Assembly (NCBI GenBank): GCA_000992445.2
Contig: LBUF02000001.1
Span: 30,393 to 94,392, forward strand
Source: Parcubacteria group bacterium GW2011_GWA2_38_13b
GTDB lineage: Bacteria > Patescibacteriota > Minisyncoccia > GWA2-38-13b
Direction: 5' to 3'
Length of the DNA: 64,000 nucleotides
In this document: positions 7,034-61,131 of the stretch, one piece after another
Layout of the letters: each line of letters begins with the position of its first letter
Position numbering within the stretch: position 1 is the first letter of the stretch
Position numbers and translations under genes: made by a program
The notes under the pieces: model-generated
What the model was told of the DNA's origin: nothing
The model's input: only the letters and a program-made list of their open reading frames with translations
Database searches by the model: none

Positions 7034-7552
7034 TTACTTAATCCAATAAGACCAAGGCCATTTAAAAATTTCAGACAAAATACCTAATATTATAAATAAA
7101 ATTAAAACAATAATTGGAAACCAAAGAATCTTTGCTGACAATCTTTGCTTATCGCTTGGCACAAAAAGTATGTGAATTAAAATTGCAAAAATAGATAATA
7201 CAGTTGCTAGAGAAACAATCAATAAGATAGCTGATAAAAAAGAGGTCGCTGACTTTACAATACTCACATCAATTATAAGTAACGCAAGTATCGCAGAGAA
7301 TACACCAATAGTTTCAATATTTTTATTTGATTGGTCTACTATTTTTTCATTATACAATTCAATTTTTTCATTGACCTTCACAAGATCGGCTTCTGTATCT
7401 TTAATTTTTTCCCCAAACTTATTTAATATTTCGGGATATAATTTCAATTCTTCTGTCTGTGACATGGATTCTGGAATGACAATCTTTTCCCAATCCTCCT
7501 TAGGTTTGCCTCCAGTTTCAGAATTTGATTTTGGTAAAATTATTTCCTTCAT
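7034..7552 (-). CDS. Predicted coiled-coil plus multi-TM membrane protein, unknown function
   Basis: Hydrophobic segments IETIGVFSAILALLIIDVSIV, FLSAILLIVSLATVLSIFAILIHILFV, ILWFPIIVLILFIILGILSEI. Confidence 0.7.
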   Translation of the reverse strand: MKEIILPKSNSETGGKPKEDWEKIVIPESMSQTEELKLYPEILNKFGEKIKDTEADLVKVNEKIELYNEKIVDQSNKNIETIGVFSAILALLIIDVSIVKSATSFLSAILLIVSLATVLSIFAILIHILFVPSDKQRLSAKILWFPIIVLILFIILGILSEIFKWPWSYWIK

Positions 7553-7554
7553 AT

Positions 7555-8202
7555 TTAAATTATGGTCTTTTCTGCTTCAGTAGTTGCAACAAGAACAAAT
7601 TTTTTCAGAGTTTCTTTACCAAATTCGTTTTTATTTATATCTTCTTGCAAGCTATTTATATCCCTTGTTATGACAACTCCTTCTTTTTTTAGTCCATTTT
7701 TATCATTTGCAAAACCAGTTTCATATAATTGAGAATTATTTGAAATAACTTCGTTAATTTTGGTTTTTTCATTAAGGCGAACAACAATCTCTGTGGGGTT
7801 TAGATTCGATATTTTCGATTTATCAAAAAGAGACTTCATTTCGTCGATGTTAGCTTCCTTGAAATATCTAAATACCACACCTACCCTACCAATAACAACT
7901 GAAAGCTTTTCAATAACATTAAATATTTTATCGTGATTATTTGTTATAAATGCCTTGTCTTTTGAAAAAAAATCAATTCTATTTTTCGAAAGGTTGATAT
8001 TCACCAATGGAGAATTTATGACCACCCTAGGAATTTCAGACGGGGCATTATTAGGAATTCCAATTATTTGTGCACTTAAATCATTACCAAACTGTTCTTT
8101 AATAACCAAAGATGCATTTTCGGGCATACCCTGGAAGTCATTCTTAAAAAATAATCCTAATTGTATTTGTATAAATTGTTTTTCCATAAATTTTATTTCC
8201 AT
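7555..8202 (-). CDS. Hypothetical protein (215 aa), start overlapping the SDH-protease stop
   Basis: ORF overlaps 8193-9224 by about 10 nt (translational coupling geometry). Confidence 0.7.
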   Translation of the reverse strand: MEIKFMEKQFIQIQLGLFFKNDFQGMPENASLVIKEQFGNDLSAQIIGIPNNAPSEIPRVVINSPLVNINLSKNRIDFFSKDKAFITNNHDKIFNVIEKLSVVIGRVGVVFRYFKEANIDEMKSLFDKSKISNLNPTEIVVRLNEKTKINEVISNNSQLYETGFANDKNGLKKEGVVITRDINSLQEDINKNEFGKETLKKFVLVATTEAEKTII

Positions 8203-9224
8203 CCTTGCTCGACGACTCGCATCACAACTTGTTCTTGTGGAACCTGAATCATGCCTTGCAGTGTCTGTTGTGGAACCATTACTTGTTGACGTTTAAATTC
8301 CATTGTTAAGCCATAAGCCTTTGGAAGTTCGGCACTTTCAACAAAAGCAACTTTATATTCTTTCTTGTTTTGACTTGCGTTCATTCCAATTTCATTTTCT
8401 GGATTCCAAACCACTTTTTGTAACTCCATTTCATTGGCATATTCAGAATAAAGTTTAGACATTAAATCGGAAAGTGTTGTATCTGCATAAACTATAGATT
8501 TTACATTCAATTCTTCTTTTGCCTCTTTTCTTCCAATAAAGTATGTATGTGAATAAAGTTTTTCGGTAAACGCTTCAACAATTTTCTCAATTTGATCTTC
8601 CTTCATTGGTTCTTTGTGACTCTTGAGCAATCTTTTCGCTAAAAGACGAATCAAATTATGTGTTCGATTTACATTCCCAAGTGCAAGAGGATGAATTTGT
8701 GGATTTGACTCCATAAATTTATTAAAAATCTTTGTTAGATCTTCATCGCTTTTAATGCCAAATTTATTTTTTGCTAAATCAAAATATGAGATAACATCCT
8801 CAACAGAGATGGGAATTTTATTTTGTGGGTTTGTTGGGTCAGACGGATTAAATACATTTGCTGTTGAAGGATCAATTGGTGAAATTTCTGAAAGATCACT
8901 CATAACTATTTCGTCCGCCCCTAAAGCAATCATTGTTCCCGCACTGTGTGCTTTGTAAGGGACAATAACAGAGAAAGTATCACAATACTCTCGTATCATT
9001 GAAACGAGCCTCCAAGGCACCATAGTGTCCCCGCCTGCGGTATAAAGAAAAAGATCAATTTTAGGCACTTTCGTGCCAATTTTTCGAAGTTGCTCGCTAA
9101 CTATGGGAATAATATCCATAGCAACACGGGCATTTACAGGTCCTTGCCTATCACTTGTTATGTAGGTAATGACCTTTGAACCTCTATTTTCTTCAATTTT
9201 CTTTATGAGTTCTGCTTTTGACAT
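8193..9224 (-). CDS. SDH_sah-type serine protease (ClpP/SppA fold)
   Basis: LFLYTAGGDTMVPWRLVSMIREYCDTFSVIVPYKAHSAGTMIALGADEIVMSDLSEISPIDPS. Confidence 0.82.
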   Translation of the reverse strand: MSKAELIKKIEENRGSKVITYITSDRQGPVNARVAMDIIPIVSEQLRKIGTKVPKIDLFLYTAGGDTMVPWRLVSMIREYCDTFSVIVPYKAHSAGTMIALGADEIVMSDLSEISPIDPSTANVFNPSDPTNPQNKIPISVEDVISYFDLAKNKFGIKSDEDLTKIFNKFMESNPQIHPLALGNVNRTHNLIRLLAKRLLKSHKEPMKEDQIEKIVEAFTEKLYSHTYFIGRKEAKEELNVKSIVYADTTLSDLMSKLYSEYANEMELQKVVWNPENEIGMNASQNKKEYKVAFVESAELPKAYGLTMEFKRQQVMVPQQTLQGMIQVPQEQVVMRVVEQGWK

Positions 9225-9265
9225 ATTAGTATGTTAGCATTTTTAACCCTTAATATCAATGATTT

Positions 9266-10021
9266 TTAATTTATTTTTTGAAACACGAAAAGGTGTTCAT
9301 GCATTATTAACAAAAAATTTGATTCCTTTGATTTCGTAACCCAAAAACCTGTTGCTTTGCAATTAAACTGTCTTTTTATTATGTCCTCTTTTAAAACAAA
9401 ACCTACTTTCAAAAATCTTTCCATGACCTTAAAAGCAAGCGGTTGATACATTTTATTTCTGCGCGTATCTCCCATTAAAATTGCACAGTATTTTCCTTTC
9501 TTTAAAACTCGAAACAATTCTTTAGCGACTTTTTCTATTTCATCAACAAAAGTGTCTATGTCGTGAATACCTGACAAATCTTCTTTAATTTTACCTTTGC
9601 TATATTTTATGATGTCAGCGTAAGGGGGATGAGTTAAAACAAAATCAATTTCATTGTCCTTAATAAAACCCATATCTCTCGCATCACACTTTACCACTCT
9701 CTGTTTTGCTTTGTTATCAACTTCAAATTCAAGAGATTTCCTCGTCCTTTCTAGCGCCTCCTCATTAACATCAATGCAAGTAATGTGGCGATTTAAAATT
9801 TTTGCTTCTATTGCAGTAGTGCCTCCACCGATCATGCAATCGAGCAAGTGATCTTTCTCTTTTGAGTAGCGTAAAATAAGATTACGGGCTACTTCGGGAG
9901 ACCAGTTTCCACGCCAGTCAGAAGTATGTGTTGCCCAATTACCACGACGAGGAAAAGCCCATACTGTTGTACATTCTAGTTCAAATTCATCTGGGTTAAG
10001 TTTCAGCTCTTTTTCAGACAT
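9266..10021 (-). CDS. DNA methyltransferase (amino-MTase class)
   Basis: DCMIGGGTTAIEAKILNRHITCIDVNEEAL (SAM motif) and DFVLTHPPYADIIKYS (catalytic xPPY). Confidence 0.85.
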   Translation of the reverse strand: MSEKELKLNPDEFELECTTVWAFPRRGNWATHTSDWRGNWSPEVARNLILRYSKEKDHLLDCMIGGGTTAIEAKILNRHITCIDVNEEALERTRKSLEFEVDNKAKQRVVKCDARDMGFIKDNEIDFVLTHPPYADIIKYSKGKIKEDLSGIHDIDTFVDEIEKVAKELFRVLKKGKYCAILMGDTRRNKMYQPLAFKVMERFLKVGFVLKEDIIKRQFNCKATGFWVTKSKESNFLLIMHEHLFVFQKIN

Positions 10022-10780
10022 TTAGACAATTTTATATTTTTTAGATTTAACTAATTTAATAGAATCGTAATTATTTTTATCTGTAAACTTATACTGCCAA
10101 ATTAAATACTCATCAACTCTTTTTTCAAAAAACAATAGAAAGACTTCTTTCTTTGTATGTTCTGTCCATTGTCTGTATGGATAATATAATTGTCTAATTA
10201 TTGTGTTTTTTGTAGATGAATTTTTAGCTTCTATTAGAACAATTTTATTTTTTCCTTCATAACCAGCGTCAACTTCTGTCTGGACTCCTTTTGTCTCAAT
10301 TGTGGTATTGCCAATTTTATAACTAAACTCCGGTGTGTACTTTCTTCCTCTAATTGTTAGGACAAGCGAAGGATCGTCCATGAATGTTCTGATAAGACTT
10401 GAAGCATAGGCAAAATCAAGATGTTGCATCTCAGAATTTCCAATTTTTGCCGTGTCTAAATCAAAATCGAGCTTAGTATTATAAATTTCAGCTTCACTTT
10501 TAATTTCAGGAATATCAACATACCCCTCAGCTTTTACAAGAACATATTGACCATTTTTAACTGGCAATAAGACTAACCCGTTTTCTTTCATTATTGCTGG
10601 AACACTTTCTCTCGTATCCATTTTACATAAAATCCGAACCTCTTTTTCTGTTGTACTTTTAAAATTTTGAACTGATTTTTTTATATCTTTTGCAGATAAA
10701 TAAAATGGTGATTTAGAAAAATTATGTTCTATAATTTTATTATCTTTAAATATTTTTATCCAAGAATTATTGTTAGCCAT
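10022..10780 (-). CDS. Putative PD-(D/E)XK restriction endonuclease
   Basis: VQTEVDAGYEGKNKIVLIEAKNSS nuclease-like core; lies between two DNA MTase genes. Confidence 0.68.
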   Translation of the reverse strand: MANNNSWIKIFKDNKIIEHNFSKSPFYLSAKDIKKSVQNFKSTTEKEVRILCKMDTRESVPAIMKENGLVLLPVKNGQYVLVKAEGYVDIPEIKSEAEIYNTKLDFDLDTAKIGNSEMQHLDFAYASSLIRTFMDDPSLVLTIRGRKYTPEFSYKIGNTTIETKGVQTEVDAGYEGKNKIVLIEAKNSSTKNTIIRQLYYPYRQWTEHTKKEVFLLFFEKRVDEYLIWQYKFTDKNNYDSIKLVKSKKYKIV

Positions 10781-10784
10781 AAAT

Positions 10785-11741
10785 TTAATAGTTAGTTACC
10801 AATACCTCTGTAATTTTACCTCTTTTAGAAGCATCGGAGTTAATGGCACGACCTGCTTGTACTTTTGTAATACGGGTACCTTTAATATCGGAATAAATTT
10901 TGTTAATAAATGGCGTGTCGGAATTAGAAAGCATAACAAAACAACCTCGTTTGTGTAATTCTACAAATGAATCTCTTAGTTCAGTTTGCTCTTTATCTAA
11001 AAATCCCTCGCTAGTATATGAAGTAAATGAAGCGGTTTTACTTACGGGGTAATATGGTGGATCAAAATAAACAAAATCTCCTTTTTTGGCTTTTTTAAGC
11101 ACTTCCTTATAATCCTGTTTTTTTATCTCAACATTTTTCAATGCTTTTGATGCTTTTCTAAGATTATTTTCATCACAAATAAGTGGATTTTCATATTTTC
11201 CAAACGGAACATTAAATCCACCTCTGCTATTCACGCGATACATACCATTGAAACATGTTCTGTTTAGGTAAATAAAACGAGAAGCAATATTTAGATCAGG
11301 AAGTTTTTCTGGATTTTGTGCCCTTATTTTTAGAAAATATTCTTTATCTAGCTTATGTTTTTTGAGTGATTTTATTAAATTTTCAACATCATTTTTAATC
11401 ACATTATAAGTAATGACAAGTTCACTGTTTAAATCAGAAAGATAAGCTGTCTCAGGAAGCAGATCGAAGAATACAGCACCTCCACCGACAAATGGTTCAA
11501 AATACTTTCCGCTTTTCGGATCAAATTTTTCTGGCGGATAAAGATTCATTAAGCGAAATTGTGCAAGAAGTTGCCTTTTTCCACCAACCCATTTGACAAA
11601 AGGTTTTGGTTTTTCTGCAATAATACGAGAAGAATCTTCTATGAGATTTTTCTTATCTGCAAGCGAAAAAACTCTGTGAGCATAAATTGCATTTATGTTA
11701 AAAGTTTCTTTAATTTCTAAAATTGCTTGGTCTTTTGTCAT
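10785..11741 (-). CDS. D12 class (Dam/DpnM-like) adenine-specific DNA methyltransferase
   Basis: PFVKWVGGKRQLLAQF, YFEPFVGGGAVFFDLLP, GDFVYFDPPYYPVSKTASFTSY. Confidence 0.92.
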   Translation of the reverse strand: MTKDQAILEIKETFNINAIYAHRVFSLADKKNLIEDSSRIIAEKPKPFVKWVGGKRQLLAQFRLMNLYPPEKFDPKSGKYFEPFVGGGAVFFDLLPETAYLSDLNSELVITYNVIKNDVENLIKSLKKHKLDKEYFLKIRAQNPEKLPDLNIASRFIYLNRTCFNGMYRVNSRGGFNVPFGKYENPLICDENNLRKASKALKNVEIKKQDYKEVLKKAKKGDFVYFDPPYYPVSKTASFTSYTSEGFLDKEQTELRDSFVELHKRGCFVMLSNSDTPFINKIYSDIKGTRITKVQAGRAINSDASKRGKITEVLVTNY

Positions 11742-11745
11742 AGGT

Positions 11746-11958
11746 CTATTTTAGCAATTCATCGCTCGAAACACCAAGAGCTTTGGCAATATTGGAAATA
11801 GTAGAAAGCGTAGGATTTGTCTTTCCATTTTCAATATTACTTATAAAACTTCGGCTAACGCCGAGGTTTCGGACAATATCGCCCTGTGTAATGCCTTTCT
11901 CTGTTCGGATACGCTTTAGGTTCTTGCCCAATTTCGCAAATTCACTTTTCATATCCAC
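11746..11958 (-). CDS. Xre-family HTH regulator (R-M controller-like)
   Basis: LKRIRTEKGITQGDIVRNLGVSRSFISNIENGKTNPTLSTISNIAKALGVSSDELL. Confidence 0.9.
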   Translation of the reverse strand: MDMKSEFAKLGKNLKRIRTEKGITQGDIVRNLGVSRSFISNIENGKTNPTLSTISNIAKALGVSSDELLK

Positions 11959-11974
11959 AGTATAGCATTAACAT

Positions 11975-12008
11975 TTACATTATACACCAATATTATAGTA
12001 TAATGTAA
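11975..12008. promoter_or_regulatory. Candidate operator (C-box-like) upstream of the Xre gene
   Basis: Perfect 11 bp inverted repeat TTACATTATAC-N12-GTATAATGTAA, 17 bp upstream of the Xre start and next to the TIR. Confidence 0.6.
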
Positions 12009-12013
12009 TAGGG

Positions 12014-12395
12014 TTTTGTCCGCCCCGAATTCCCCCAAAACAAAAAGAGGAGCAAATGGAAAATTCCTCCCCAAACCCCTCCTTTTCCATTTGCGACATC
12101 CGAATTCAAAAACAAATCAGCCGAAGTTTTGGCAAATCCTTTCCCCAAAAAATAGTTTTGCCAAAACTTCGTCCGCATTGTTCCGCCACCTGCCCGAGAC
12201 CTTGAGGGCAGAGCACCAAAGAAAAATGTCCTTTCCTTTTTCAAGAAAAATTTCACCCCCGCCAAATCAAGAAAGCAAGAGACATTTTTCTTTGGTGTTG
12301 CCGAGTGAAGCGAGGCAGTGGCGGAACGATTCATTCCACATCGGGATTTTGTTGGTAAAAAGTTCGGATTTTGTTCAGGAGACACAGCCAATTTC
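12014..12395. repeat. Right terminal inverted repeat of cassette (382 bp)
   Basis: Reverse complement of 6667-7026 plus a 22 bp insertion flanked by AACAAAATCC repeats. Confidence 0.95.
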
Positions 12396-50315: not shown

Positions 50316-50325
50316 TTACAAAACA

Positions 50326-50358
50326 AATCCCGTTGAAGCATAAGCTCAACGGGATTTT
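50326..50358 (+). terminator. Hairpin terminator
   Basis: AAATCCCGTTGAaGC-ataa-GCtCAACGGGATTT + T-run. Confidence 0.75.
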
Positions 50359-50372
50359 TAATTTATTCAATC

Positions 50373-50762
50373 TTAATTATGCGGCACTGACCATCTATGC
50401 GGAATACCGCTTGGCGTATGACAGATACCGCATTTATCCGTCATGTGGTTCAGACGGTCTTTATGGCATTTTATACATTTCTCTTTTGGCACTTCCGCGG
50501 GACGGCTCACGAATCTCGGGTCCAAAAATACGGTTTTGCCGATTCTTCTCATCTTGCCCATTATCGTATCCTTGTGGCAATCCACGCATTTGGCTTTTCC
50601 GTAATGCGCTGACTTTACAAACCCGACAACGGCCGGCTCCATTATATGGCAACCTCCGCACATTAACGGATTTTCCGAAACATAGTTCAATGCCTTGGGA
50701 ACAATAAACAGACCGGCGGCAAAACTAATTATTACCAAAAATGCAATAACTATTTTCCCCAT
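50373..50762 (-). CDS. Membrane-anchored tetraheme c-type cytochrome (NapC/NirT/NrfH-like)
   Basis: N-terminal TM and CGGCH, CVDCH, CIKCH, CGICH. Confidence 0.88.
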   Translation of the reverse strand: MGKIVIAFLVIISFAAGLFIVPKALNYVSENPLMCGGCHIMEPAVVGFVKSAHYGKAKCVDCHKDTIMGKMRRIGKTVFLDPRFVSRPAEVPKEKCIKCHKDRLNHMTDKCGICHTPSGIPHRWSVPHN

Positions 50763-50764
50763 AA

Positions 50765-51742
50765 TCAATCTCCCGGATGACAAATTATGCAACTCGGTAT
50801 TCCGCCTTCTTTGGCTCTTTTTGCAATTTCATAAGGATATTTTCCTAACCTGCCTTCGGATTTATGTTCAATGGCATGCATTGCTTCTTCGTCTCGGCGC
50901 ACATGGCATCGCGAACATACAAATTTATTTGGATCCTTAATGTCAGGATGCTGGACATCGTGCATTCCTTGCGGCATATGACAAGTAACACAAACCGGAG
51001 TATGAGCGTTTTCTTCAAAATTCTTCTGCCAGTTCTCTGAAGAACCGTTCCATTGCCATTTATTGCCTTCCGATTTATAAGTCAACCCGTGGCGCGTATT
51101 ATTCAAGTATTTTTCCATCTGCGGATGCCGATTACCGGAATGACATTTTCCGCAAGCTTCGGGTCTGCGCGCTTCTTCCAAAGAAAATTTATGCATCACA
51201 TGGCATGTGTTGCATTTAAATTCTATTTGATGGCAAGACGCGCAATCTTTTTTTATATTGATAAACTTTCCGTCTTTATCAAGGTTGATATGATTTTGAA
51301 GCCCGCTATTCCATGCTTTTCCATGTTTGCTTTTAATAAATTCATCATTTTGTTTTTTATGACACTTTGCGCAAACTCTCGGCGGGACAACATTAATAAC
51401 ATTTTTCATATCGCATTTTGAATCATCAATTCCCCTGATTTTCGCGACTTCCGCAATCTCTCCCCTGATTGTTTCGTCAATGTTAATATGACACTCATCA
51501 CAACCAACTCCCTTAAAAGCATGCTTGCTCTGACGCCAATTCTGAAAAACAAACGGGGTATATTTTTGCTCGTGGCAATCAAGACAAACTTTCATTCCCT
51601 CGGTTATCACTACTCTTTCTTCGGGATCAGCAAGACGATGAAACGTTTCTGATTGCCAACAAATATAAAAAACAGCGCCAAACATCGCCATCAAAAAGAC
51701 AGCGAGAATATAATATCTTTTTTCCATTTTCACCCCCTCCAT
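50765..51742 (-). CDS. Nine-heme c-type cytochrome, membrane anchored or exported
   Basis: CLDCH, CDECH, CAKCH, CASCH, CNTCH, CGKCH, CVTCH, CSRCH, CIICH; N-terminal TM. Confidence 0.92.
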   Translation of the reverse strand: MEGVKMEKRYYILAVFLMAMFGAVFYICWQSETFHRLADPEERVVITEGMKVCLDCHEQKYTPFVFQNWRQSKHAFKGVGCDECHINIDETIRGEIAEVAKIRGIDDSKCDMKNVINVVPPRVCAKCHKKQNDEFIKSKHGKAWNSGLQNHINLDKDGKFINIKKDCASCHQIEFKCNTCHVMHKFSLEEARRPEACGKCHSGNRHPQMEKYLNNTRHGLTYKSEGNKWQWNGSSENWQKNFEENAHTPVCVTCHMPQGMHDVQHPDIKDPNKFVCSRCHVRRDEEAMHAIEHKSEGRLGKYPYEIAKRAKEGGIPSCIICHPGD

Positions 51743-51795
51743 TTTTCTTTAAAAATTAAAGTTGAAAACGAAGAATTTTTAACTAGAAAAATGAG

Positions 51796-51909
51796 AGCCC
51801 CGTACCAATTCAACAACCTTACCTTACATAATCTACGAATAAAGCCGTTAGGCGATTCGCTCTCAAATTTTCATCTACAATTTACTTGCCCCGAAATTGG
51901 TATGGGGCT
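51796..51909. promoter_or_regulatory. Structured intergenic region between cytochrome b and nine-heme cytochrome genes
   Basis: AGCCCCGTACCAATT (51796-51810) / AATTGGTATGGGGCT (51895-51909), 14/15; overlapping GAGAGC/GCTCTC pair. Confidence 0.4.
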
Positions 51910-51921
51910 TTATCCTTTTCG

Positions 51922-52980
51922 TTAAACCAGCGCCTCTAAAACCGTAAATAGCATACAAACTACCATCAAAATTGTCCCGCATGTAAAAGCGATAATGCGA
52001 ACAACGTTGAGAGGAATAAACATTTCCATAATGGTCTGAATGAAAGGCCACAAAGTCATTACCGCGAAAATTCCCATTGTTGACAAAATACCGACTTGAA
52101 ACGGCACAAGTTTCAAAAAATGAAACATTGGAAAAAAATACCATTCCGGCTTAATGTGTTCAGGGGTTAAAAACGGATTTGCCGGTTCTCCTAATGTTGG
52201 CGGAAAAAAATAAACTATCGCGACAAAAGAGAAAACCAATACCCAAAGAATTTTATATTCATTAAAGATATGGTTCGGCACTAATGAATAATAACTTTTT
52301 TCTGTTCTACCAGTATAAGAAATACCATGTTCTCTTGCCAATAAAAGATGCGCCATTATCAATGGCGTTAAAACCAATAATGGTAAAATCATCACATGCA
52401 AAAGGAAAAATCTCGGCATTGTGTACAAATTTATCTCCGTACCGCCAAGCATCAATCGCTTTATGAACGGTCCAATAACAGGGGTCGCGGCGGCAATATT
52501 AGTTCCAACCTGCGTTGCCCAATAACTTAATTGGTCTCCGACTAACGCATAGCCAGTGAACCCTAAACCCAAAGTCGTGAAAAAAAGCAACATTCCGCAA
52601 ACCCAGATAAGTTCCCGCGGCCTACGATACGACTCGGTGAAAAACACGCGCAACATATGTAAAAATAAGCTTACAATCATAATGTTCGCGCCGAGCTGAT
52701 GGACTCCACGAATATAATTTAAAACCGGAAATTCATAAGTAATATTCCGGATTGAAATATATGTAGCCGATAATCCATTAGCCAATTCTCCGGAATAATT
52801 CATATAATAAGCGCCAAGAATAAGTCCGGTCACGAACTGGATAAAAAAACAAATCATCGGAATTCCGCCGAGCGCGAAAAAAAATTCACGTGCCAAAGCC
52901 GTCGGCACTTTTTCGTCAATCTTGTCTTTTAATTCTCCCGGGGTTATGCCGATTCGCTCTTTTAAAAAATTCCTAATCAT
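51922..52980 (-). CDS. Cytochrome b of a bc-type complex (full-length)
   Basis: Histidine-bearing helices GVHQLGANIMIVSLFLHMLRVFF and MPRFFLLHVMILPLLVLTPLIMAHLLL; PEWYFFP Qo motif. Confidence 0.94.
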   Translation of the reverse strand: MIRNFLKERIGITPGELKDKIDEKVPTALAREFFFALGGIPMICFFIQFVTGLILGAYYMNYSGELANGLSATYISIRNITYEFPVLNYIRGVHQLGANIMIVSLFLHMLRVFFTESYRRPRELIWVCGMLLFFTTLGLGFTGYALVGDQLSYWATQVGTNIAAATPVIGPFIKRLMLGGTEINLYTMPRFFLLHVMILPLLVLTPLIMAHLLLAREHGISYTGRTEKSYYSLVPNHIFNEYKILWVLVFSFVAIVYFFPPTLGEPANPFLTPEHIKPEWYFFPMFHFLKLVPFQVGILSTMGIFAVMTLWPFIQTIMEMFIPLNVVRIIAFTCGTILMVVCMLFTVLEALV

Positions 52981-53495
52981 AACCCCTCCCCTCTAAAATA
53001 TTGCTCAGGTTGCCATGTCGGTTCCCTAAAGCTTATATAAACCAATCCATCTTTTATTTCTACAGGGTATTGATCCAGTGACTTTTCCGGCGGTCCGCTT
53101 TCTACGCTCCCGTCAGCCGCGAAAACCGCGGTATGACACGGACAAAGAAATTTACCCCGCTCTTTTTCCCAAAAAACCTGACATCCCAAATGAGTGCAAA
53201 CCAAAGAAAATGCCTGAATATTTCCGCCATTATTAATTAAAATGGCTTTTCTATTATTCGCTTTATCTTCAAAAATAATTGAAGCCCCAACTTGATTTAT
53301 TTCCGTTATTGGCGCCGCGTAAACTTTACGGTAAACATACGGCTCCCCAAACCATCCCGAAGGCATTAACGATTTAAGTAATTGACTCGCTATCGCCCCG
53401 GTAGCTCCGGCGCTTATAATCAAACCAAAGCCAACCAAGATTCGTTGAAAAAATCCGCGCCTCGTAATGCCTTTTTCCTCTGATTTATTTTCCAA
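52977..53495 (-). CDS. Rieske [2Fe-2S] protein
   Basis: CTHLGCQVFWEKERGKFLCPCHTAVF; N-terminal twin-Arg-like TRRGFFQ then TM; overlaps cytochrome b start. Confidence 0.94.
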   Translation of the reverse strand: MENKSEEKGITRRGFFQRILVGFGLIISAGATGAIASQLLKSLMPSGWFGEPYVYRKVYAAPITEINQVGASIIFEDKANNRKAILINNGGNIQAFSLVCTHLGCQVFWEKERGKFLCPCHTAVFAADGSVESGPPEKSLDQYPVEIKDGLVYISFREPTWQPEQYFRGEGL

Positions 53496-53606
53496 ATTTC
53501 ACCCCTTTTTTGAAATTTTCAAGGAAACAAATTCAATATATTGTATTATATGACCGAAAAAATGTCAATTATTTTGCTTTAATTTTAACTGAAATTACGA
53601 CAAAAT

Positions 53607-53640
53607 TAAAAGCGGGCAAATTATCTTGCCCGCCTGCTAA
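53607..53640. terminator. Hairpin terminator
   Basis: GCGGGCAA-attatc-TTGCCCGC. Confidence 0.65.
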
Positions 53641-53665
53641 ATTTTAATATGCTTCCTCCACTGTA

Positions 53666-54340
53666 TTACTGCAAAGTCAACGACAACCACTTTCCACTAT
53701 GGCACTTTCCACATATAATGCCGCCATAACCAGGACCGGCATCATCTTCCCATGGGAATGTTAGAAATTCACCGTACGGACCCTTGTCCCCACGATGGAT
53801 ATAACCATGGCATGTCGCGCATGCCATAACATTTTTATTAACTCCGTCAAAATAGAAATCTGCCTGCATTTCTGCAAGTGTCGTCATCACATCTTGCAGA
53901 ACTACCGGTGTCCTTGTCGCCCTTTGACTAATTAAAGAAGCCGTAATCTCCATACCGATTGGATGGCCATAATGGCCATTGTGGTCCACGAATACATAAC
54001 TCATTGATGCATGCGTTTTCCAGTTTGATCCGCCGTGACATTTTAAACACACCCTACTACTCGGTGTATTATAAATTGACGGCGTTGATAAAAGCGTCCA
54101 TGAACTATAATTCTGCCAATCCGTTGTTACATCAAGTTCATCCGATCCGATGTACAACCATGGGGAACCAGGAAAAATTATTTTAGAGTCTTGATTCCCG
54201 CTGTGTTCAACATTATGACATTCCCCGCATACTGTAGGGTTGTGCGTTGCGGAGTAATTATGCCCCGCTATAACCGAAGAACTGACCATAAATCCGGCAA
54301 ATGCCAATATAAACATCGTCAACATTGCTTTTCTAAACAT
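53666..54340 (-). CDS. Exported tetraheme c-type cytochrome
   Basis: Signal peptide; CGECH, CLKCH, CATCH, CGKCH. Confidence 0.9.
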   Translation of the reverse strand: MFRKAMLTMFILAFAGFMVSSSVIAGHNYSATHNPTVCGECHNVEHSGNQDSKIIFPGSPWLYIGSDELDVTTDWQNYSSWTLLSTPSIYNTPSSRVCLKCHGGSNWKTHASMSYVFVDHNGHYGHPIGMEITASLISQRATRTPVVLQDVMTTLAEMQADFYFDGVNKNVMACATCHGYIHRGDKGPYGEFLTFPWEDDAGPGYGGIICGKCHSGKWLSLTLQ

Positions 54341-54457
54341 ACTCTTTTTGCCTCCTTCCTGCTCTGCAAATTTTCAAAAAACCAAATCACAATGTCCTTA
54401 ATGCCATCTTATCATTGGTCAAAAATTTGTCAAGTATTCGGTCACTTTTTATAGTCG

Positions 54458-55864
54458 CTATTTGCCACTTAACTGTCCGTAGGCAAAAACCATCACCTTG
54501 CCGTGATCAATAATTTTCCCTGCCACTTTTTCCGTTCCACCGCCCTGACAAATAATCCAAACCAGATATTCAACTTTAAAATCAGGTGAAACAAATTGCC
54601 CAAAATGTTCAATATTCGCTTCAATAGTATCAATGACAATCTTATACGGCCTAACCATATTGGGCATCTTCCCGCCGACCAAATCATTTTTTACGGATTC
54701 GCCGCCCCAAACGGAATGTGGCAAGCAAGCCAAATTTCCCAATGCCTTTTCTTTCCCCCATTTCATTTGGGAGAAAAATTTTATGTACGGCCGCGATTTA
54801 ATGTCAACCGCTCCCTTGGTTATTCCTTTCATTGTAATACCCGCGTCCAACGCGTATATATCCCCGTTGGGCGCGATAGCGATATCCACGACTTCCTCAA
54901 AACAAACAAGATCCGTCCCACGAATTCCGTATTGATCCAAAAATTTTCCGGCAGGATCAAACTTTAAAATACGGGCGCCGCGCTCTTCGGAAATATAAAT
55001 ATTCCCATTACTATCAACATCAACATCAGACGGCTGACACAATAAGACATCTTCACTTTTTTTCTTCTTTTCGTGATCCGCCTTAATCGCTTCGGCGGAA
55101 AACGGCACGGGGTTTTGGATGCCCTTTTTTGCCAGAATTTTTTCATCACCGGTTTCTATGAATTTTTTCCATATATTTTCCGGCATCCCGATAACGGATA
55201 AAACTTCCCCCGTTTCTTTATTCAAAACAAAAACGCTTTCCGGAGAGTCCTGATTCAGGTTCCGTTGAAGTCCGGTATCAACGACATACAATTTCTCACC
55301 GCTAACCTTTATTCTCATAGGGGTGAAAACGCAATCAATTTTTCTTTCCAAATTAAACTCCAAGTCAAAAACCATAATTTCTTGCCGCGCCGGATAGGAT
55401 AAATAAATCAACTTACCATCCGTATCCATTCCGTAAGCGCCATCAAAATTATCATCCTTAAACCCTTTTATTTCCCGCAGTTCCGGCTTCTTGCCGCCGA
55501 AATCATAAACCCAAACACTTTTACGTTCTTGATCCAAAATAAAAGTTTTGCCCTCAATTACGGCAATATCTATTGGCGTATCAATGCATGGATCCAGCTC
55601 CTGCTTTTCGCCCAATAGAACATCAAGCCATTTTCCTTTTACTGCAGCAAACTGAGAGCGCCCCAATAACTCATAAAGGAGTTGCCAATTCTGCTCTTTG
55701 TTTATCGGCGAATTCCTGCTCTTTTGTTTATGAGGATAAAATTGGTATTCCGTTTGCTTAACAACTTCCTCCTTTTTCTTGCCAAAACTATCGGAAGTGT
55801 TAACTGCCGACATTATAAAAAATGCCGACAAAAAAATCAAAATCATTCTTTTTATCACAATCAT
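54458..55864 (-). CDS. Exported NHL-repeat/beta-propeller-like protein
   Basis: Signal peptide; repeats such as PSDVDVDSNGNIYISEERGARILKFDPAGKFLDQYG and VDIAIAPNGDIYALDAG. Confidence 0.8.
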   Translation of the reverse strand: MIVIKRMILIFLSAFFIMSAVNTSDSFGKKKEEVVKQTEYQFYPHKQKSRNSPINKEQNWQLLYELLGRSQFAAVKGKWLDVLLGEKQELDPCIDTPIDIAVIEGKTFILDQERKSVWVYDFGGKKPELREIKGFKDDNFDGAYGMDTDGKLIYLSYPARQEIMVFDLEFNLERKIDCVFTPMRIKVSGEKLYVVDTGLQRNLNQDSPESVFVLNKETGEVLSVIGMPENIWKKFIETGDEKILAKKGIQNPVPFSAEAIKADHEKKKKSEDVLLCQPSDVDVDSNGNIYISEERGARILKFDPAGKFLDQYGIRGTDLVCFEEVVDIAIAPNGDIYALDAGITMKGITKGAVDIKSRPYIKFFSQMKWGKEKALGNLACLPHSVWGGESVKNDLVGGKMPNMVRPYKIVIDTIEANIEHFGQFVSPDFKVEYLVWIICQGGGTEKVAGKIIDHGKVMVFAYGQLSGK

Positions 55865-55894
55865 TACCGTTCTCCTTTCTAATTAAACGCGCTG

Positions 55895-58003
55895 TCAAAA
55901 TTTTCTGGAAATATAAAATTTTACCAATAGTCCGTCATTTTCCGTTGATCTGGCGCCCGTAACATATTCTTCAAATGCCTGACGGGCAAAAAGATCAACT
56001 GTCCATCTTCTGAGTTTATAGGACACGCCATTAAAAAGGGACAAAACTTTTCTATCAGTATCTCCTATGGCAGACGCGTCGTAAGACACTCCGGAAGCAA
56101 CCTTCATTTTACGCGTTTCATATAAAACATTAAAAGCGTTGCTTAAAAGAGTATAATCATTGCCTGATTCTTTGTTATATTTTATGGAAGTCCTGTTGTT
56201 AGACAACGATACTTTCAACCCTTCTATGAATGGCAACGGAACCGATAAGGAGGATTTAAAAGTCAACCTTTGAAAAGGATAAAGCTCTTGCGTATTTTCT
56301 TCCAGTTCAATACTTGATTCTCTCTCAATATTCCACCATTGCTCAAAAATGTTTCGCGATCTAATCCCAATAATATAACTCGCTCCAGGGTTCAAGAATA
56401 TATTTTCTTCAGTTAAACCAATCGGACCGTTCGCTTCCTGATTAAGGATAAAAAAACGAACATACGGTTCCATCAAACCGTCTAACAAACTAACTCCCAA
56501 AGAAACGGTATGGCTTGACTCAATAATATCGCCAAGCGGATTTTTATTTTTATAATCCACGAATACCGCCTCTCCATTCAATATACTTGTCCCAACAATT
56601 CTTTCTATGTAAGTTTTCGGTCCCGCCCGATAAACGCGATAATCTATCCCTTCTAAATAATGCACTACTCCAGAAAGATCAAAAACTTCAACGGATTCAA
56701 TTTGGACATTCTCATATTTTAAAGCTATCGGAGAATATCCTGAAAGAATGCGCGATTCGCCTTTTATAAAAGATTCGCCATCTCCCGATCTCGCGATATC
56801 ATTAAACTCAAAAGCATATCCGCTGGAAAATTTACCTCTCCACGGTATTACTTTCGTGTAATCGGTTTTTCCCCTGATGCCCGTAAGCAATGACTCATAG
56901 TTGGACAAAGAAAGTTTTGATAAAATTCCTTCCAACTCACTAGACAAGCTTGTCCCTAATTGATGAGAAAAACCGATTCTAATTTCCATCAAATTCTCTT
57001 CCGTCTGAAAAAAACCAGACTCATTTTGCTCCTTATCGTTGACGTTACTATAATCTCTGGTTATTCTCTCAACATCAAATTTCAAAAATGCGTCAAGCGT
57101 CTGAAGTTTGTCTTGTAAAATCCAATAATTTACATCCTGCCCAAACTTCATATTCAAATACTCATTAATGCCACTCTGCGAATTTAAGCTTACCCTGGTT
57201 TTTGTCCGCAAGTTATCATCCAAAAATTTCCCGAAAAGAGATCCGTGAGAATATGAATTTAAAGACTGCGCTTCATAACCTTCGCCGCCAAAAACAAATT
57301 CTCTCTCGTATTGAGTAATTCCGGAACTGAAATTAAGCTTAAATATATCCCATTCTTTCTTAGTGTCAGCTTCAAATGTTTTCCACCCTTCTTTGAAAAA
57401 AGAATTAAACTCATTGAACATATTTTCCGATTCCCTGCTGGAATATTTGAAATTGAAATTTATGGGCCACCCCATCACTTCCTCGCCCATCCGAAAACCG
57501 GCTCCAGCCCTAAACATATCCATAAGATATATTGAAGAAGGCGTATGCTCATATTCCTTGTACTGCTTTTCCGTAAAGAAAGAACCGGAATAGGGAGTGC
57601 CGCTTAAAAATTCCCCGCGGAATTTATAATCAGTCAAAAGTCCCTTACTCGGATAATCAGCTCCTCCTTGTTCAAAAACAACGCCAAAACCAAAATTAAG
57701 TTTCAAGAATCTCGGACGAAGAATAAACATATTGTCTTCAATCCTTAATTCTTCGGTAAAAAACCTATAACGGCTTTCTCCATCTTTGCCGTCATAAGAA
57801 CTCTGACGCGATTCTTCCATGAAACGAAAACCGAATTCACCAGTCGGCCGCTCAAAGAAAAGGAAATTATTGTAATCCCATATCGGATGCATTTCTTCCG
57901 CATAAACAATACTGCGGGAAAAACAAAACAAAACGATAAATCCAACTAAAAACAGCAGTTTCTTGATCATTTCATTCCCCTTTATATTATATTTTGTTTT
58001 CAA
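55895..58003 (-). CDS. Predicted outer-membrane beta-barrel (porin-like) protein
   Basis: Signal peptide MIKKLLFLVGFIVLFCFSRSIVYA; alternating amphipathic strands throughout; C-terminal LLVKFYISRKF (terminal aromatic signature). Confidence 0.75.
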   Translation of the reverse strand: MKTKYNIKGNEMIKKLLFLVGFIVLFCFSRSIVYAEEMHPIWDYNNFLFFERPTGEFGFRFMEESRQSSYDGKDGESRYRFFTEELRIEDNMFILRPRFLKLNFGFGVVFEQGGADYPSKGLLTDYKFRGEFLSGTPYSGSFFTEKQYKEYEHTPSSIYLMDMFRAGAGFRMGEEVMGWPINFNFKYSSRESENMFNEFNSFFKEGWKTFEADTKKEWDIFKLNFSSGITQYEREFVFGGEGYEAQSLNSYSHGSLFGKFLDDNLRTKTRVSLNSQSGINEYLNMKFGQDVNYWILQDKLQTLDAFLKFDVERITRDYSNVNDKEQNESGFFQTEENLMEIRIGFSHQLGTSLSSELEGILSKLSLSNYESLLTGIRGKTDYTKVIPWRGKFSSGYAFEFNDIARSGDGESFIKGESRILSGYSPIALKYENVQIESVEVFDLSGVVHYLEGIDYRVYRAGPKTYIERIVGTSILNGEAVFVDYKNKNPLGDIIESSHTVSLGVSLLDGLMEPYVRFFILNQEANGPIGLTEENIFLNPGASYIIGIRSRNIFEQWWNIERESSIELEENTQELYPFQRLTFKSSLSVPLPFIEGLKVSLSNNRTSIKYNKESGNDYTLLSNAFNVLYETRKMKVASGVSYDASAIGDTDRKVLSLFNGVSYKLRRWTVDLFARQAFEEYVTGARSTENDGLLVKFYISRKF

Positions 58004-58202
58004 AATAACTATCTGTAAGATTTACAGATTCTGAAATAAATTCGAAATAATATTTATTTAATTTGAACTTATTTCAAAATCCTTATTACGCTATTTTTCT
58101 AAACTTTCTTGCCCGCCGTATCCGCCAGCTGACGGAGGAGGTGGGTTTCAAAATCTATTTTTCGCGAGATAGAGTTGGACCCTACCTCGCGAATTTTTAT
58201 TT

Positions 58203-59189
58203 TTACTTTTTGCCGTGTATAACTGCCTTATGACAGGAAATACATAACGGCATTTTATACATCGATGTCAAAAAATCTTTTTTAGGATTATCCGGTTTAA
58301 TGGATTCGGGACCGTGACACTCGAGACAAACCTTCGTCACGCCGCCTTCAATCAAGATATTGCTTCCATCTCCGGAAAAATTATGACACTTCTTGCATTC
58401 CGGCTTTTCAAAAGGAGGATGCTTGCGCCATCTGGCATAATCTTTGGCAATTTCATTCTGACTTACTTGCGTATCTCCTTTTTCCAAATGCTTCATATGA
58501 ATGTCTTTTTTGTGGCACATCACGCATTTTGGCATCCCGTACATCATTTTTAAATCCATTTTCAGATTTTTCTTTTCCGGATCATATTTATGACACTGCG
58601 TACAAACTTCTTTTTCCGGCGCTTTCAAAAGATGGTCTTCGTCGCTGGAATGCGGATTATGGCAGGTAACGCACGCGCCAATCTCCGATCCCTTGCCCTG
58701 AATAAATTTGGAACGATTGCTAAATTCCGGATGGCACACTAAACAAATGCCAACCGCCCGTTCTCTCATTAAAGCTTTCTCTTTGGATTGATGAGGCGTA
58801 TGGCATATATCACATTTGCCTAAAAATACCGGCAAATTAACTCCCTTCTTTTGATAATCGTTTTTTTTGTGGCACTTAAAACAAAGCGTATCAATCCGAC
58901 CGGATGCCAACGCGGAAATCGCGCCGCCTTCTCCGTCATGACAAACAACGCATTCCCCATTTTCCCATGGCGAATGTTTGCTCTGCCATTTCGCCGCTTC
59001 CGTTTTTTTTACTTCCTCGACTATTTCACTCATACTTCTTTTGGAAACCGGATTTTTATCGACCGTCAATTCTACCTCGCTCGGCACACCATCAATAAAA
59101 AACCTTAAACATCCTTTCTTTTCAATCTGTCGGCAACCAAAAGAACCGAGCAGAATGAAAATAACGAACAACTGCAATATTCTGCTCAT
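58203..59189 (-). CDS. Decaheme c-type cytochrome, putative lipoprotein
   Basis: Signal with LLGSFGC lipobox-like end; CVVCH, CFKCH, CDICH, CLVCH, CVTCH, CTQCH, CVMCH, CKKCH, CLECH, CISCH. Confidence 0.92.
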   Translation of the reverse strand: MSRILQLFVIFILLGSFGCRQIEKKGCLRFFIDGVPSEVELTVDKNPVSKRSMSEIVEEVKKTEAAKWQSKHSPWENGECVVCHDGEGGAISALASGRIDTLCFKCHKKNDYQKKGVNLPVFLGKCDICHTPHQSKEKALMRERAVGICLVCHPEFSNRSKFIQGKGSEIGACVTCHNPHSSDEDHLLKAPEKEVCTQCHKYDPEKKNLKMDLKMMYGMPKCVMCHKKDIHMKHLEKGDTQVSQNEIAKDYARWRKHPPFEKPECKKCHNFSGDGSNILIEGGVTKVCLECHGPESIKPDNPKKDFLTSMYKMPLCISCHKAVIHGKK

Positions 59190-59361
59190 AACCCCCCCCT
59201 TTTTTTTTGAATACTTGAATAATCGAAAAAATAAATAATCAAAGAACTTTTAACATTACATATTATCTTATAATACAAGTTTTGTCAAGAAAATTTGACT
59301 AATTTTCCGTCATTTTTTTGATACATAAAAAGGCGTAATTTTCATTACGCCCGTTCATTCC

Positions 59362-60066
59362 TTAATCTGCCCCGAAAAATTTCATTCTTCCCGCCATAAT
59401 ATCTGTTAGATCTTCCGTTTTTCCCTTATCACAATACAGAATTTCTATTTTTTGCGAAATTTTCTTCCCGTCGGGAGAAAATTCTGTAATGCCCAACACA
59501 ATACCGTATTTTCCTCGAACGATTTCGGAACTAATAATTTTTATTTTCCGATAAAAATCTTCGGTTAATCCCGCCCTCTTCTTGCCAATATCCGCTCCAA
59601 TGTCCTTGTTGAGCGCCGTCAATTCTTTTCTTTTGGCAATTACATTCTGATCGGAATCAATAATGCCATGGTACTTACCGTAAGCATCTGTTAATTCCTT
59701 GCTAGACATTAATTCCTGAAATTTAGTTTCAACAGCCTTAATTTCTTCAGTGTTACCGCCACCCCTTATTTTTTCCGTGTTTTCCCACGCCTCCAAAAGC
59801 GGTTTGATTTTTTCTTTTAATTCCGCAGCTTCAAGAGTATTGCGCGCTTCCCCTTCTGCTTTCTTTAATTCTTCTTGTAAAACCGCAAAACCCTTTTCTT
59901 CGGCAAGTTTTTTACCATAATCAACAATCTGTTGATTTATAGCATCTAGTCCGGCTTCGTTCATATTTACAAGGCCAATCTTCATCTTTTCGTGTCCTTC
60001 GCATCCGACAAAAACTGTAATCAATATAAAAAATGTCGCTAAAATCGCCATTATTTTCATATTCAA
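59362..60066 (-). CDS. Putative Skp/OmpH-like periplasmic chaperone lipoprotein
   Basis: FVGCEGHEKMKIGLVNMNEAG...helical middle...GKYGIVLGITEF...IEILYCDKGKTEDLTDIMAGRMK. Confidence 0.55.
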   Translation of the reverse strand: MNMKIMAILATFFILITVFVGCEGHEKMKIGLVNMNEAGLDAINQQIVDYGKKLAEEKGFAVLQEELKKAEGEARNTLEAAELKEKIKPLLEAWENTEKIRGGGNTEEIKAVETKFQELMSSKELTDAYGKYHGIIDSDQNVIAKRKELTALNKDIGADIGKKRAGLTEDFYRKIKIISSEIVRGKYGIVLGITEFSPDGKKISQKIEILYCDKGKTEDLTDIMAGRMKFFGAD

Positions 60067-60078
60067 TCCCTTTCTATA

Positions 60079-60939
60079 TTATTCGCTTAATTTGTATAAA
60101 TTATATCCGGAATCGGCTATAAATTCGGCAAAATCATTATGAACCCGAACGATGACTTTACTTCGAATGTCCTGCAATTTTTTCAAAATAATATCATTTT
60201 TTTTCTGATTTTTTATCTTTTCAAAAAGCTCATCCTGTCCCTTGCTAAAATCTTCGTAATATTTTTTTATTTCGGCAGGAATGACTTGCGCTTTTCCTTC
60301 CGCCACCTTTGATATTTCCTCAAAAGCTCTTTTTGCGAAAGCGCGTTGTAAAAATCGCTTTTCAACATACGAAAAATCCATCCCCAACTCTTCGGTTGCA
60401 GTCAGGATTATTTTTCGGACATCTTTTTTCCGCGCAGAACAACTTTCATCGGGAAAAAATAGCTCAACGAGAAGAAAATCCTTCCAATTCTCGATAAGTT
60501 TCTTCAAATCATTTCCGTCTCCCTCGCCGATTTTGCCCAATGCTATGATTTTTTTAAAAAAATCATCCATATGTCCGGACCAAATATACAACACATCTCC
60601 GAATTCACCACCAACCCATTCATCCCGTTTTTCCACCCATAAACCGAAATTTCGGTTTATGGAAGAAATATTTTTCTCCAATTCTTCCAAACCGACTTTA
60701 GCCAACAATATTTCGTCAATAAAACTTTCCAAATCATTCCTACTCCTGAATCCCTTAAAAAGCGGCGGCAAACAATCAACTTCCCGGAATTTCTCCTCTG
60801 CCTTTAAATCAAATGATTTTATAATTTCTTTGTTATTTATTTCAACCACAATACAGTCAACAATCGTTGCTGATCCGACCAATCTTGCGGGAATAATAAT
60901 GACAGCGCATAAAATCAAAAAAGCGATAAAATTTTTCAT
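60079..60939 (-). CDS. Putative SurA N-terminal domain-like exported protein
   Basis: Signal peptide; ATIVDCIVVEINNKEIIKSFDLKAEEKF near N-term, IPAEIKKYYEDFSKG and LQDIRSKVIVRV near C-term. Confidence 0.55.
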   Translation of the reverse strand: MKNFIAFLILCAVIIIPARLVGSATIVDCIVVEINNKEIIKSFDLKAEEKFREVDCLPPLFKGFRSRNDLESFIDEILLAKVGLEELEKNISSINRNFGLWVEKRDEWVGGEFGDVLYIWSGHMDDFFKKIIALGKIGEGDGNDLKKLIENWKDFLLVELFFPDESCSARKKDVRKIILTATEELGMDFSYVEKRFLQRAFAKRAFEEISKVAEGKAQVIPAEIKKYYEDFSKGQDELFEKIKNQKKNDIILKKLQDIRSKVIVRVHNDFAEFIADSGYNLYKLSE

Positions 60940-61026: not shown

Positions 61027-61131
61027 ACCCAGTTAGAAGTTTTTGACTATTTTTTCGGTAATACATATTTATAACTATTCGATTTGTAAAATAATTTTGT
61101 ATAATATTTTTTTGAAAACTTCTAACGGGGT
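61027..61131. repeat. MITE-like repeat with ACCC(A/C)GTTAGAAGTTTT TIR
   Basis: 61027-61043 vs 61115-61131 inverted, one mismatch; possible 4 bp TCAA duplication. Confidence 0.6.

Follow-up and report, generated by a model that had tools for sequence, protein, structure and literature searches.

A candidate barrel-cytochrome electron conduit next to bc-type genes in a Parcubacteria genome

Can a bacterium of the Candidate Phyla Radiation (CPR) carry an electron conduit of the porin-cytochrome type? CPR bacteria are usually said to have neither an outer membrane nor respiration. The question is raised by a redox island in the genome of Parcubacteria group bacterium GW2011_GWA2_38_13b, within a stretch of 64,000 nucleotides (hereafter the window; contig LBUF02000001.1, positions 30,393 to 94,392). 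The island, at window positions 50373-60939, holds ten confirmed open reading frames, all on the minus strand; the original prediction, made from the DNA letters, had the minus-strand row right and miscounted it as nine genes, ten being named in its own list. Its labels for the multihaem cytochromes, cytochrome b, Rieske protein and NHL propeller were backed by Pfam, and its total of CXXCH motifs was reproduced across the four cytochromes (4 + 9 + 4 + 10 = 27), against a mean of 0.02-0.08 motifs in shuffled versions of each. The gene set is real and conserved. The best available reading, to which we give an even chance, is that it encodes a porin-cytochrome-type conduit of a new kind, without homology to the known ones and next to a bc-type complex, although the lineage is regarded as monoderm.

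The centre of the island is a cassette of four genes. The first encodes a decahaem c-type cytochrome (58203..59189, minus strand, as for all island features below; 10 CXXCH), a predicted lipoprotein whose signal sequence ends in a lipobox-like ..GSFGC (..VNGC in a homologue from Azambacteria). It scored 95.8 bits against the DmsE family TIGR03508, under the curated cut-off of 192.2. Its best match in the Protein Data Bank (PDB) was chain A of 6r2q (E = 1.1e-12); the database copy gives this chain an unrelated molecule name, and we regard it as the MtrA subunit of MtrCAB. Judged by sequence, the protein is of the DmsE/MtrA-like kind and MtrA is its nearest solved relative. The other three genes encode a candidate outer-membrane beta-barrel (55895..57970), an exported NHL-repeat beta-propeller (54458..55864; PF01436, E = 5e-8) and an exported 4-haem c-type cytochrome (53666..54340; 4 CXXCH).

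All four genes recur within 6 kb in Ca. Azambacteria RIFCSPLOWO2_01_FULL_46_26. The barrel candidate was 40% identical to its full-length homologue, the propeller 48% (with its homologue directly 3' of the barrel gene), and the 4-haem protein 53%, with 4 of 4 motifs aligned. The decahaem cytochrome was 41% identical to a 7-haem homologue, and 7 of 7 motifs aligned. This divergence is about what is expected of the lineages, as LeuRS was 55% identical and the average amino-acid identity between such lineages is 47-50% (PMC5220378). The gene order differs: the 7-haem gene comes after the 4-haem gene, and the propeller gene is followed by one for a class-I cytochrome c. The flanks of the Azambacteria cassette are a gene for a DUF411 protein (L007, 1965-2408, minus strand) on one side and the class-I cytochrome c gene (L006, 15935-16306) on the other. 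Within the class, which we take to be the Parcubacteria class of the CPR (Paceibacteria in GTDB), the barrel gene was found in 2 of 387 genomes and Paired_CXXCH in 4 of 387; the cassette 4-haem protein was confined to the window's own genome among 381 genomes sampled from the phylum. A search for barrel homologues among viral contigs, plasmids and named genome contigs yielded only the Azambacteria copy.

The barrel candidate more likely starts at ATG 57970, preceded by AAAGGGG and giving 691 residues, than at TTG 58003. A signal peptide is present, and the last residue is Phe in both homologues. No Pfam, NCBIfam or PDB match was obtained, and no MtrB/PioB family profile in Pfam or NCBIfam matched, in keeping with the earlier statement that no MtrB is recognisable here. 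Hydrophobic alternation was scored against 20 barrels of the E. coli outer membrane as positives and about 54 other proteins as negatives, with a scale and score of our own choice and no held-out check set. Alone, the candidate scored 0.159, a value reached by 11 of the 20 positives and 3 negatives. Averaged over the aligned homologue pair, the score rose to 0.295 (z 3.8), a value reached in 0 of 2000 shuffles. Outer-membrane pairs spanned 0.10-0.31 (fimD/elfC 0.309, fepA/cirA 0.244), and three non-barrel pairs -0.06 to 0.07 (NHL -0.009, LeuRS -0.057, 4-haem 0.066). The alternation supports a barrel topology indirectly and does not prove it; the fold may be that of a barrel.

A second pairing of such genes was seen on another Paceibacteria contig (G276; 203-3243, plus strand), at the start of which a DmsE-family decahaem cytochrome (215 bits, over the cut-off) is followed by a 669-residue barrel-like protein ending in KAF and then by an indoleamine dioxygenase. 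That barrel-like protein had no detectable relation to the window's barrel candidate. The contig start is atypical in composition, which points to horizontal transfer or to a chimeric contig end.

Next to the cassette lies the bc-type module. The Rieske [2Fe-2S] protein (52977..53495; PF00355, E = 4e-11) keeps both cluster-binding motifs, CTHLGC at residue 100 and CPCH at residue 118. The cytochrome b (51922..52980; PF13631, 4e-43; PF00033, 3e-39) carries PEWY at residue 278, leaving the Qo motif intact, and the two proteins together have the features of a bc/b6f-type complex. The best NCBIfam matches of the cytochrome b were cytochrome b6 (184 bits) and Geobacter ExtP (182 bits), and in the PDB it matched cytochrome b6 at 1e-37. 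In its second pair of candidate haem-ligand histidines, H195 and H211 enclose 15 residues, where the aligned cytochrome b6 has 14. The module ends with a 9-haem protein that shows similarity to the N-terminal portion of hydroxylamine oxidoreductase (HAO)-type enzymes (50765..51742; PF13447, 5e-18) and an NrfH/NapC-like membrane-anchored 4-haem cytochrome (50373..50792; 58 bits to TIGR03153 NrfH, under the cut-off), their genes overlapping by 28 bases.

On the other side of the cassette are genes for a predicted lipoprotein (59362..60066) and an exported protein (60079..60939), originally called Skp-like and SurA_N-like. Neither label was supported: no Pfam or NCBIfam family exceeded its cut-off for either protein, and no significant similarity to E. 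coli Skp or SurA was found. Terminator-like hairpins were located between the lipoprotein and decahaem genes (59331..59352; a 9-pair stem, then a T run), 3' of the cassette 4-haem gene (53610..53635; 11-pair stem) and at the island end (50325..50357; 13-pair stem). A consensus scan placed promoter-like sites at 61027, 59288 and 53568, the last being TTGACA-17-TACAAT at 53568-53540, after the second hairpin. These patterns, which are consensus matches only, suggest three transcription units, namely the orphan exported pair, decahaem-barrel-NHL-4-haem, and Rieske-cytochrome b-9-haem-NrfH-like.

We propose that the island would provide an electron route out of, or into, the CPR cell. The cytochrome b/Rieske pair would oxidise quinol at its Qo site and hand the electrons to exported multihaem proteins (the 4-haem cytochrome, and the 9-haem protein with its NrfH-like partner); from these they would reach the decahaem lipoprotein, held in or on the ~690-residue barrel. 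The NHL propeller may be a structural or docking partner. The decahaem, barrel, propeller and 4-haem proteins would form a self-contained conduit module common to Azambacteria, and the bc-type module would be a separate neighbour, so far in this genome only. In this scheme the barrel fold, the second membrane, the attachment of haem through a system not yet recognised, the direction of electron flow and the final acceptor are inferred.

Several observations weigh against the conduit. The Azambacteria cytochrome homologue has only 7 haems in place of 10. Cytochrome b, present in the window genome, was detected neither in the Azambacteria carrier nor in G276, so the bc link is local; the bc-type complex is linked to the cassette by neighbourhood alone. 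Of the originally predicted route from quinol through the bc complex to the conduit, the intact Qo and Rieske motifs speak for the first step, and the second has this neighbourhood. An AlphaFold2 model of the barrel candidate on the two-sequence alignment was uninformative (pLDDT 27); what stands of the barrel-like description is the aromatic C-terminus and an alternation like that of outer-membrane barrels.

The assembly machinery is the larger difficulty. The genome amounts to 875 kb in 21 contigs, is ~95% complete and has ~38% GC; sampled class members range from 0.5 to 1.2 Mb. Genome-wide absences were judged by single-family searches of the two carriers, the window genome and Azambacteria. 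Omp85/BamA (PF01103) gave no match at E up to 1 in either, and 8 of 14 control genomes did match. At permissive thresholds, Cytochrom_C_asm (CcsA/CcmC/CcmF), ResB and the UbiA prenyltransferase were found in neither carrier, most control genomes matching each, and a search for DNA encoding the WWD motif, tolerating one mismatch, was negative in both. At ~95% completeness one gene could be missing, but chance would less readily remove the same families from both carriers; strongly diverged versions of them, or genes located in the remaining 5%, are possible. The original prediction had proposed looking for haem-c maturation, quinone synthesis and BamA, and had named the lack of a haem-c maturation or quinone pathway as evidence against itself; none of these families being found, the result goes partly against it. 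Its idea of a new porin-cytochrome type keeps the gene content, the MtrA-like decahaem protein, the alternation and the conserved cassette in its favour, and is set back by the undetected BamA, haem-c maturation and UbiA. In addition, lipopolysaccharide genes are reported to be lacking (no lpxC/kdsA) and the envelope to be unclear (PMC5220378).

In the best-surviving alternative, which we hold to be possible, if unlikely, the cytochromes would belong to a respiratory chain at the cell surface or in a periplasm-like space, and the 691-residue protein would be a scaffold of the envelope or S-layer, rich in beta structure, with no trans-membrane conduit. The bc-type complex would then pass electrons to the 9-haem protein and a nitric oxide reductase, roughly as Castelle et al. 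proposed (PMC5220378). The undetected Omp85, the absent lpxC/kdsA and the unclear envelope fit this scheme, and the non-barrels elfG, cusB and fimH also scored high in the alternation test. Against it stand the pair alternation in the outer-membrane range, which no shuffle reached, the C-terminal Phe of both homologues, and the tight cassette with its MtrA-like decahaem protein.

Alternatively, the conduit may sit in the outer membrane or periplasm of another cell, the episymbiont supplying these proteins to a host equipped with the barrel assembly machinery (BAM) and Ccm, so that the two metabolisms are coupled. This would account for the failure to find Omp85, UbiA and genes for cytochrome c maturation in both carriers. 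The idea is purely speculative. No secretion route into a host was identified for these Sec-type signal peptides, and a lipoprotein decahaem cytochrome, as predicted, would be anchored to the producing cell; we consider it improbable.

Equally improbable in our view is the published interpretation, which assigns hydroxylamine oxidoreductase activity to the 9-haem protein and a role in nitrogen-compound respiration to the island. There is similarity to the HAO family (E = 3e-21 to 6h5l, 5e-15 to 1fgj), and the overlapping gene supplies an NrfH/NapC-like partner. However, His268 is kept and Asp267 is replaced by Arg, the alignment stops at HAO residue 316, and the protein has 325 residues against about 550 in HAO. 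Asp267 and His268 are, as we understand it, catalytic and Tyr467 cross-linking; Tyr467 and Tyr334 both lie past the end of the alignment. HAO activity is unsupported because of the Asp267 replacement and the end of similarity at residue 316, and we rejected that assignment; it would also leave the barrel cassette unexplained.

An assembly or binning artefact, with a fragment of a diderm genome in a CPR bin, would explain the missing machinery and the slightly atypical tetranucleotide use of the island (rank 3 of 57 among 10.5-kb pieces), but is largely refuted and most improbable, as CPR genes (gyrA, LeuRS) flank the island on its 181-kb contig, a second, independent CPR contig holds the cassette between other CPR genes, and Castelle et al. 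checked the read mapping of almost certainly the same scaffold. The composition of the island is near that of the contig (per-window z at most 1.2). The compositional outlier of the contig lies elsewhere, at about 7109-12108 of the window (z 4.6, GC 0.325), and covers a DNA methylase and related genes. Further neighbours on the contig are fumarate reductase and a V/A-type ATPase, which we count in favour of the conduit reading, and a 3b hydrogenase; the [FeFe]-hydrogenase maturases HydG and HydE, both over their cut-offs, lie near the fumarate reductase (L009, 4606-7051, minus strand).

The window scaffold is almost certainly that of Ca. Parcunitrobacter nitroensis (Castelle et al. 2017, PMC5220378). 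The two share the V/A ATPase, the 9-haem "HAO", PetAB, the decahaem and two tetrahaem cytochromes, SDH/FRD, the 3b hydrogenase and gyrA together, as well as about 38% GC and 16S insertions of similar length; the 16S gene here has roughly 480 extra bases, with at least two ~160-nt insertions in the alignment. Most of the redox genes are thus already published, as the 2017 paper reports the 9-haem protein (as HAO), PetAB, the decahaem and the two tetrahaems. The original prediction had recognised neither the CPR host nor this earlier report. The barrel, the propeller as a partner and the conduit reading are absent from the 2017 paper, and its text contains neither "outer membrane" nor "barrel". 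Our claim to first sight is weakened by a 2025 survey in which FeGenie reported Geobacteraceae-type porin-cytochrome operons in CPR metagenome-assembled genomes from acid mine drainage, in one sentence and with no analysis (PMC12153355).

Among known systems, MtrCAB and DmsEF of Shewanella share with the island an MtrA/DmsE-related decahaem cytochrome, which here adjoins the barrel candidate. Unlike in those systems, the decahaem protein is a predicted lipoprotein under the DmsE cut-off, there is no MtrB/PioB match, and no large MtrC-type surface cytochrome is present. The Geobacter conduits (Omb-Oma-Omc and Ext) have been given a working definition, comprising a periplasmic multihaem cytochrome, an integral beta-barrel and a redox lipoprotein (PMC6148476). 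The corresponding gene content is found here, with exported multihaem cytochromes (4-haem and decahaem), a barrel candidate and a redox lipoprotein (by predicted lipidation), and the cytochrome b resembles ExtP. In contrast to the Geobacter systems, to whose barrels no sequence relation of the barrel candidate was found, an NHL propeller belongs to the cassette, and the CPR host has no detectable Omp85 or Ccm/Ccs. The known Geobacter conduits share no mutual homology (PMC6148476), so dissimilarity to MtrB does not count against a conduit.

The main interest of the island is this contradiction, a candidate conduit in a lineage with no detectable BamA, haem-c maturation or quinone prenyltransferase. 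It is a tentative and rather doubtful proposition that some Paceibacteria have a second membrane, or use a host's, with a barrel-cytochrome conduit of a new family, BamA-free assembly and an undiscovered system of haem-c maturation. The occurrence of the cassette in two CPR families makes it testable whether some CPR cells own a second membrane, and how they might attach haem at dozens of CXXCH motifs when Ccm and Ccs are lacking. On the conduit reading, part of the published nitrogen-respiration story would move towards extracellular electron transfer.

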